Positions 61,347 to 64,000 of a stretch of DNA of 64,000 nt are shown one piece after another (positions within the stretch are counted from its first letter, which is position 1; every line of letters begins with the position of its first letter). Below the pieces are notes generated by a model that worked only from the letters and a program-made list of their open reading frames with translations, had not been told where the DNA came from and ran no database searches. Both the position numbers and the translations under genes were made by a program. Source of the DNA: Actinomycetota bacterium (GTDB lineage Bacteria; Actinomycetota; Geothermincolia; Geothermincolales; RBG-13-55-18); the NCBI GenBank assembly GCA_003598015.1, contig QZKE01000047.1, positions 1 to 64,000 of the forward strand. The letters run 5' to 3'.

Positions 61347-61559
61347 ATGGCTTTGGGCTGGAGCGAGAGTTACCACGAGGATATGAAGAGGGAGGCGGAG
61401 CAGGAGATCGGAAGGCGCGTGGCGCCACTGCTCGCAAACATCATCGAGTTGCGGGAAGCGCTCGAGAAGTATGGTGATTTTGCCGGCGGCGCGGGAGAAC
61501 TGGAGGATCTGCTCGCACGTCTGCAGGAACTTCTCGAGGAATACCTGCAGACTTCGTGA
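61347..61559 (+). CDS. Small hypothetical protein, helical
   Basis: A 70-aa reading frame, mostly charged heptad-like sequence (LEDLLARLQELLEEYL), with no recognised domain. AAAGG lies very close to the ATG. It may be a real small gene, but coding evidence is only the open frame and its position. Confidence 0.45.
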   Translation: MALGWSESYHEDMKREAEQEIGRRVAPLLANIIELREALEKYGDFAGGAGELEDLLARLQELLEEYLQTS

Positions 61560-61572
61560 GGCCGCCCCAGCG

Positions 61573-61602
61573 TTCACCATCAGGACGGTGCGGTGTTACA
61601 AT
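61573..61602 (+). promoter_or_regulatory. Likely original promoter of tRNA-Leu, now separated by an insertion
   Basis: TTCACC (61573-61578), an 18-nt spacer and TACAAT (61597-61602). If the element at 61611-61839 and one target copy are removed, the -10 stands 13 nt before the tRNA 5' end, a natural spacing. Confidence 0.5.
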
Positions 61603-61610
61603 ATCTCTCG

Positions 61611-61839
61611 AGGTTCATCTGTGAGAAGTGTGGGTGATTAGTATGGTGGTGTTGTGGTCAGGCATAGGGGTCAGGCCTCGGATTATGCCTGACGGACTTG
61701 TTAATCCAAGCCGATATGCAGCGATATCAGGGGGGATAGTACTTCCTCGCCATCCATGTCGCGTGGCAAGCTCAGGCATAATCCGAGGCCTGACCCCTAT
61801 GCCTGACGGTAGCTACCCACACTTCTCACAGATGAACCT
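61611..61839. mobile_element. MITE-like inverted-repeat element inserted before tRNA-Leu
   Basis: A 229-bp non-coding element. Terminal inverted repeats of 25 bp are perfect (61611-61635 and 61815-61839, outer end AGGTTCATCTGTGAG). A second, inner pair of perfect 36-bp inverted repeats lies at 61657-61692 and 61772-61807 and contains AGGGGTCAGGCCT. CTCTCG flanks both ends (61605-61610 and 61840-61845), a likely 6-bp target duplication. The inner repeats resemble those mobilised by REP-type transposases, which is an inference. Confidence 0.8.
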
Positions 61840-61850
61840 CTCTCGATACT

Positions 61851-61937
61851 GCCGGAGTGGCGGAACAGGTAGACGCGCTGGTCTCAAAAACCAGTGGGGG
61901 TAACCCCGTGCCGGTTCGAGTCCGGCCTTCGGCACCA
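61851..61937 (+). tRNA. tRNA-Leu (anticodon CAA)
   Basis: An 87-nt class II tRNA. Acceptor GCCGGAG pairs with CTTCGGC, anticodon arm CTGGT-CTCAAAA-ACCAG gives CAA, a variable arm GGGGTAACCCC is present, and the T arm is GCCGG-TTCGAGT-CCGGC. The 3' CCA is encoded. It reads UUG codons. Confidence 0.97.
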
Positions 61938-61941
61938 GGAA

Positions 61942-61966
61942 AAAGCCCCGCCAACCGCGGGGCTTT
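61942..61966 (+). terminator. Terminator after tRNA-Leu
   Basis: AAAGCCCCGC (61942-61951) pairs with GCGGGGCTTT (61957-61966) around a CAACC loop, only 4 nt after the CCA end. The T-run is short (TTT). Confidence 0.8.
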
Positions 61967-62118
61967 ACCAATGTGAGCCGCAGGTGTTTTGTCACTGCCC
62001 GGGTTTATTATGTTTTTACGTTCTCCTTGGGTGAGGGGGCGGAGCTTGCGGGCTCCGTCCCCGAGCCTCACATTGGGTGCAGCAAACAACAATCAGCCAG
62101 ATAGATGAAAGAGGGGAG

Positions 62119-64000
62119 ACTTGGCGGAAGTCAAGAGATGGGTTCTCATCGACGGGCACAGCCTGGCTTACCGGGCCTTCTACGCGCTCCCCCCCGACCT
62201 GGCCACTTCCTCGGGACAGATTACCAACGCCGTGTACGGCTTCACATCCATGCTCATCAAGGTGCTCGAGGAGCTGCGTCCCCAAGGGATTATCGTGGCG
62301 TTCGACAAGGGCAAGCCCGCATTCCGCACCGAGAAGTACGCGGATTATAAGGCACACCGCAAGCCCATGCCCGGTGAGCTGCGCGAGCAGATCGATATAA
62401 TCCACGCCGTCCTGGATTCTCTGGGGATTCCCTCCCTCGAGGAGGAGGGCTACGAGGCCGATGATGTACTGGCTACATTGACCGCGACACTCCCCATGGA
62501 TAGCGAGATCTTTATCGTTACGGGCGACCGGGATGCACTGCAGCTCGTTGACGATCGCGTCAGCGTCATCGCCAACCGCAAAGGCATCAGCGACATAATC
62601 ATCTACGATTCCGGGGGGGTCAAGGATAAGTACGGCGTAGAACCACGGCAGATAGTGGATTACCTGGCCTTGAAGGGGGATCCCTCCGACAATATACCCG
62701 GCGTTCCCGGCATAGGAGAGAAGACCGCGGCCGCACTGATAGGCGAGTTCGGAAGCCTGGACGAGGTCTACGAACACCTGGGGGATATCAAGGGGGCCAG
62801 GGCAAGAAAGGCACTGGAGGAGAACCGGGAAAGCGCCTTTATGAGCCGCGAGCTCGCCAGCATGCGTCGTGACGTTCCCCTGGGGGGCGAGGACGCCCCC
62901 GCTTGGGAGATGCGTCCATGGGACGAGGACAAGGTTCGTGCTGTTTTCGATTCGCTGGAGTTCAGGAAGCTCTACGAACGCCTGGAGAGCATCAAGACGC
63001 AGCTTTTCCCTGAGCTCGCGGCGGAGAAACCAGCAGAAGAGATGCTCGACCAGGCCGTGCGCCTGGAGGTAGAGGATGAGACCGGGCTCACAGAGGCGCT
63101 GCGCTCGTGCGGGAGTTCTGCCGAGCTGTCCATATACGGCCATATAGAGGGGGAGGGATATACCCGCGGCCACATGAGCTCACTATCATTTACCAGCGGG
63201 GGCAGGATATTCCGTTTCTCCCTGGAGGATGAGAACATCCGCGCATACCTGCGTGTTCTGATGGAACATATCGCGCACGCCGGGGGGCTGCGGATCAACT
63301 GCTATCGCGGCAAGGATGTCATGGTGCAATGTGCCCGTCTCCTCGGCTTACGCCCCCGCTTCGATTTCGATGTGGAGCTGGCCGCATACCTCGTCAACCC
63401 GACCGGGGCGAAGCGGGGCCTGGAGGATGCCGTTCAGCGCTACCTGGGGATAACCCTCGCCGGGAAGGGGGAGGGGCAGCTCGATCTCATAGAGGAGGAT
63501 GAGGTCAGAGCCGAAGACGACATGCAGAGGACGCTTGCCGTCGCCAGGCTGGTCGAGCCCCTGGAAGCCGAGATGAACGCGAGGGATGTGAGGCCGCTCT
63601 ACGAGGACGTGGAGATGCCCCTGCAATCAGTCCTCGCGGACATGGAGGTGCGCGGCATACGGTTGGACCGAGGGGTGCTGGAGTCCATGCAGGGGGAGTT
63701 GGAGGAGGAGCTGAAAGGCCTCGAGGAACGGGCGTTCGAGTTGGCGGGTGAAACATTCAACCTGAACTCGCCGCAGCAGCTTTCACGCATCCTCTTCGAG
63801 GTTCTCGAGCTGCCTCCCCAGAAGCGCACCAAGACGGGTTTAGCCACCGACATCAGCGTGCTTACGGCGTTGTGCGAGGTGCACCCCATCGCCGAGATAC
63901 TCGTCCGCTACCGGGAACTCTCCAAGCTGCTCAACACCTACGTGAGCGCCCTGCCGAAGCTGGTGGACCCGGTGACCGGCAGGCTTCACACCTGTTTCAA
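62119..64000 (+). CDS. polA: DNA polymerase I, 3' end beyond the window
   Basis: Repair and Okazaki-processing polymerase; 627 residues are visible. Residues 1-290 are the 5' nuclease (LIDGHSLAYRAFYALP, AFDKGKPAFRTEKYADYKAHR by position 59-79, EADDVLAT, GDPSDNIPGVPGIGEKTA). A 3'-5' exonuclease-like domain follows but lacks the acidic DxE start (SIYGHIEGEG), so proofreading is probably lost. The start of the polymerase domain (SVLADMEVRGIRLD, FNLNSPQQL) is seen. TTG 62119 follows GAGGGGAG. Confidence 0.94.

Follow-up and report, generated by a model that had tools for sequence, protein, structure and literature searches.

The tRNA-Leu(CAA) locus

The window, a stretch of 64,000 nt from an Actinomycetota bacterium (contig QZKE01000047.1, positions 1 to 64,000), carries a tRNA-Leu(CAA) gene that is separated from its promoter by a composite element of 227 bp, as judged from the sequence and from comparison with other members of the element's family. 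The locus is organised as follows:

61573–61578, + strand: -35 box TTCACC of the native tRNA promoter, the sole promoter-like site in 61500–62130, kept in a congener
61597–61602, + strand: -10 box TACAAT, preceded by TG (promoter scan); TAAAAT in eight of nine relatives and TACAAT in the ninth
61604–61611, + strand: left 8-bp target duplication, TCTCTCGA, with the expected transcription start at its end (sequence, script)
61612–61838, no strand: composite element, 227 bp; copies on contigs C33, C51 and C16, all within perfect 8-bp duplications of their own
61612–61635, + strand: left terminal inverted repeat, ISL3 type (sequence, end-pattern search)
61657–61693, + strand: left REP of the REPIN core (copy comparison)
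61694–61771, no strand: REPIN spacer, common to the copies on C33, C51, C16 and C32
61772–61807, − strand: right REP of the REPIN core (copy comparison)
61815–61838, − strand: right terminal inverted repeat (sequence, end-pattern search)
61839–61846, + strand: right 8-bp target duplication (sequence, script)
61847–61850, + strand: TACT, the four bases that end the original leader (sequence, relatives)
61851–61937, + strand: tRNA-Leu(CAA), intact, CCA encoded (ARAGORN, Rfam)
61942–61966, + strand: hairpin 3' of the tRNA, AAAGCCCCGC-CAACC-GCGGGGCTTT, a possible terminator although below the T-run threshold of the terminator scan; a congener has a similar hairpin after its tRNA

The element ends (GGTTCATCTGTGAGAAGTGTGGGT) are perfect inverted repeats of 24 bp, or of 26 bp if the GA that by chance precedes both ends is counted. 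We fixed the border by reference to the other family copies, nearly all of which start with GGTTC and carry 8-bp duplications. The initial annotation had recognised the insertion and the perfection of its repeats but gave a 229-bp element, 25-bp repeats and a 6-bp duplication; its border lies two bases too far out, with fewer duplicated bases counted, because GA precedes both ends. The insertion point is 9 bp past the -10 box, where transcription is expected to start, and the tRNA begins 12 bp from the element end and 4 bp from the end of the duplication. A 91-aa reading frame over the element runs on into the tRNA and was taken as spurious, and all Rfam matches at the locus other than the tRNA itself fall far below their gathering scores. 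A second CAA-Leu tRNA, which the initial annotation had suggested looking for, was not found in the assembly, which is 89.5% complete.

Nine relatives of the same family, in which tRNA-Leu(CAA) lies upstream of polA, were located by a protein search with the downstream polA; the element is absent from this site in all nine and the promoter is kept in all. Without the element, the window would read GCGTTCACC..GGTGTTACAATATCTCTCGATACT followed by GCCGGAG. G002, a congener whose locus has the same sequence as that of JAFGDU010000062.1 (Actinomycetota, Zod_Metabat.1188), has the empty site GCGTTCACC..GGTGATAAAATAGCTCTCGTACAT followed by GCCGGAG. The layout TTCACC-18-TACAAT-13 nt-tRNA obtained in this way is the same as in the empty site of the congener and of other family members, and across the nine relatives the -10 box lies 13–28 nt from the tRNA (13 nt in the four closest). 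A search with the end pattern returned 159 matches in the genome against two for its reversed control and, together with the empty site in relatives, this rules out a chance palindrome or an assembly artefact. The earlier proposals that a MITE-like insertion separates the tRNA from its promoter, and that its removal restores a -10 box at normal distance, are thereby borne out; neither of the outcomes named as speaking against them (the same arrangement in relatives with unrelated flanks, or a lack of other copies) was seen.

ISL3-type ends around a REPIN core

Multicopy (159 end matches), short (227 bp) and non-coding, the element has the properties of a MITE. By their sequence its ends are ISL3-family ends, and the same ends adjoin ISL3 transposase genes. 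One such gene, on contig C50 (Pfam HTH_Tnp_ISL3 and DDE_Tnp_ISL3), is frameshifted and terminates in the same terminal repeat (TACCCACACTTCTGGGAGATGAACC / GGCTACCCACACTTCTGGGAGATGAACC), and similar ends adjoin ISL3 genes in the genomes G016 and G005. Searches of this draft genome, a single metagenome assembly, 89.5% complete, found no ISL3 gene that is intact and has both ends, although such a gene or a second CAA-Leu gene could have been missed there; the element may be mobilised in trans by an ISL3 transposase. Fourteen of 33 paired copies in the genome have identical 8-bp flanks and 28 agree at 6 or more of the 8 positions, a few of the 33 probably being chance pairings in a catalogue that was built from searches and selected genome stretches and is incomplete. 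With up to two mismatches allowed, this genome contains 107 matches to the end, G002 nine, G001 none and the other relatives zero to four: the ISL3-type ends have expanded in this species. Carriage by viruses was tested, and viral contigs contained no exact match to the end pattern.

As comparison of copies shows, the element has two layers, an ISL3-type MITE and, inside it, a REPIN. Its core (61657–61807) consists of an inverted REP pair with a spacer and is predicted to fold into a hairpin. Each layer also occurs without the other, as MITEs of 66–101 bp that lack the REPIN pair (L225, L066, L212, L008, L007 and L011) and as a REPIN that lies upstream of tRNA-Thr on C15 and has no MITE ends. 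Copies of the element are 92% identical on C33, 91% on C51 and 76% on C16, and because each of these has its own perfect 8-bp duplication around the whole composite, the composite must have moved as one unit. The element unites a MITE of the DDE-transposase kind with a REPIN of the RAYT type, two mobilisation systems that are unrelated, and the joint form has spread as a whole. Some of the short MITE forms look like deletions between 6–7-bp repeats in the REP arms (CCTAGG in L008, AGGCCT in L007 and AGGCATA in L212, judged by eye).

The arms also change in a paired manner. Between the window copy and the C33 and C51 copies (L002 and L003), four stem pairs are changed on both sides (10/218, 11/217, 53/189 and 74/168), and the long stem contains three broken pairs, all of them in the C33 copy. 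Such paired changes between close copies suggest hairpin-templated correction or selection for pairing, and REPINs are known to undergo changes of this compensatory kind (PMC3116915). In a set of 28 elements, ends that belong to one element differ by 3.2 mismatches and ends from different elements by 4.4, a difference to which shared subfamily ancestry contributes.

Several known systems resemble parts of this arrangement. A 187-bp MITE of Microcystis aeruginosa (PMC11448079) is alike in its short non-coding form, ISL3-matching ends, 8-nt duplications and stem-loop; it differs in its end (GGCTCTTCG) and in its insertion in the sbp gene, and the relevant passages of that paper report no REPIN core. 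The REPINs and RAYTs of Pseudomonas fluorescens (PMC3116915) share the inverted REP pair with spacer, the long hairpin, the compensatory changes and a genomic RAYT, whereas here the pair is often carried by a MITE, with which it has moved, and the REP sequence is unrelated by eye, with GTC or CGTC rather than GTAG as the common tag. The nesting of insertion sequence and REP recalls ISPpu9 of Pseudomonas putida (PMC8450116) in the inverse order: there the insertion sequence lies within the REP, and here the REPIN lies within the MITE.

Insertion into two tRNA leaders and its probable consequences for expression

Among 43 tRNA genes checked, one other leader is hit. A 72-bp MITE of the same family sits between the promoter (TTGACG/TATACT) and the tRNA of tRNA-Ala(GGC), a gene that is single-copy in the assembly (L066 1498–1658; C63:25207–25364 of this genome). 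Its 8-bp duplication, ACGTGTGT, stops 4 bp before the tRNA, the same offset as at tRNA-Leu(CAA), and in both congeners the site is empty and the promoter conserved. The two insertions are independent, since target, length and arm sequence all differ. At each of the two genes the sequence from the promoter to about +1 is intact, as are the 12 leader nucleotides nearest the tRNA. The initial annotation had missed the 8-bp duplication, the MITE/REPIN composite and this second insertion at the same offset.

Could the two hits reflect targeting, with ISL3-type elements preferring transcription start regions including tRNA leaders, and not only survival? For random intergenic landing, the probability of two or more hits among the 43 leaders is about 0.002–0.03 with assumed copy numbers and intergenic fractions, the offset is 4 bp in both cases, and the promoter score at insertion sites is 6.7 against 5.1 (sd 0.4) for AT-matched flanks, a value reached in none of 5000 draws. 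However, the sample is 28 sites, the promoter matrix is crude, the duplications are 72% A+T, a composition that overlaps with that of -10 sequences, and survival alone would favour the same window and could give the same picture. We therefore regard targeting as possible but doubtful. Improbable in our judgement is a broader scenario in which the ISL3-type elements of this lineage prefer start regions, tRNA leaders included, and the 8-bp duplication lets them lie between the promoter and the RNase P site with both preserved, a safe harbour that would have permitted a burst of more than 100 end copies in one species and carried the REPINs along.

The most reasonable explanation for the present arrangement is that a non-autonomous ISL3-family element with a central REPIN transposed into the region where transcription of tRNA-Leu(CAA) starts, making an 8-bp staggered duplication of the usual kind. 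Because the cut would fall at about +1 and 8 bp are duplicated, the whole promoter is left upstream and the last 12 leader bases are left beside the tRNA. The old promoter would then yield a precursor whose leader, about 240 nt long, folds into one very long hairpin that should not terminate transcription because no T run follows it; RNase P would act at the unchanged junction and remove the leader, possibly with RNase III assisting by cleavage of the duplex. Twelve unchanged leader nucleotides should be enough for RNase P, given what is generally known of its contacts with the leader. We infer which transposase moved the element, the read-through and the processing, and give the explanation as a whole a probability of roughly 0.75; a model of read-through and subsequent RNase P cleavage fits best, since both genes keep their promoter and the 12 leader bases next to the tRNA unchanged. 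No terminator-like site appeared in the scan of the region, and the predicted tRNA fold is unaffected by the leader. Against this explanation, the draft genome yielded no intact ISL3 gene with its two ends, the one on C50 being frameshifted, and the predicted leader fold of about -158 kcal/mol could slow RNA polymerase or processing.

The initial annotation had left two options for expression, the old promoter or one within the element. Outward promoters are carried by some bacterial MITEs (PMC4133298), and weak promoter matches occur here at 61642 and 61845; these score 7.7 and 7.0, however, compared with 11.2 for the native promoter, the match at 61845 lies directly against the tRNA, with no space for a start site between them, and the scan of 61500–62130 finds the native promoter only. 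An element-borne promoter is unsupported by scan and scores and is very unlikely to drive the tRNA, which leaves the old promoter. Alternatively, the insertion may be recent, as its still perfect duplication allows, and harmful or neutral, with tRNA-Leu(CAA) silenced and Leu(TAA) reading UUG instead. Leu(TAA) and Ala(TGC) tRNAs are present in the assembly, and loss of Leu(CAA) may be tolerable if Leu(TAA) reads UUG, a further point against read-through. Yet the tRNA and its promoter are both intact, and the single-copy tRNA-Ala(GGC) is arranged alike, and its loss as well would be harder to tolerate; we consider silencing quite unlikely. With 72-bp and 227-bp hairpins between promoter and tRNA in two single-copy genes, the genome offers a natural test, on the read-through model, of the leader length that a bacterial tRNA tolerates. 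A literature search for MITEs in the leaders of bacterial tRNAs turned up none with the terms tried, which is weak evidence of absence.

REP sequences and a RAYT-like gene elsewhere in the genome

A RAYT-like gene on C29 (L079 880–2280) is flanked on either side by REPs of a related subtype; it matches Pfam Y1_Tnp above cut-off and NCBIfam REP_Tyr_transpos below cut-off (46.6 against 80 bits). The tag before the REP palindrome is GTC in 41 and CGTC in 22 of 84 pattern matches, some of which are spurious, and GTAG is not among the common tags at the REP foot in this set. We use the term REPIN for the layout and the link to a RAYT, and no membership of the GTAG superfamily is implied. One REP flanking the C29 gene is preceded by CGTC. 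The authors of PMC3733652 report finding no RAYT with CGTC-tagged REPs at its sides, and the REPs at this gene, with a structure unlike the CGTC families described there, may belong to another class.

On C32 (C32:20600–21017; L005/L252), a REPIN with remnants of MITE ends directly follows a tRNA- or tmRNA-like 3' end, GTTCGATTCTGGCCAGGGGCTCCACC; a tmRNA was considered, but ARAGORN finds no gene there. The REP pair on C15 (C15:57796–58044; L045), which lacks MITE ends, lies just upstream of the tRNA-Thr(TGT) promoter and is seen in neither congener, part of the G001 stretch reading N. A further REP pair without MITE ends (L038) lies just upstream of the tRNA-Ala(TGC) promoter.
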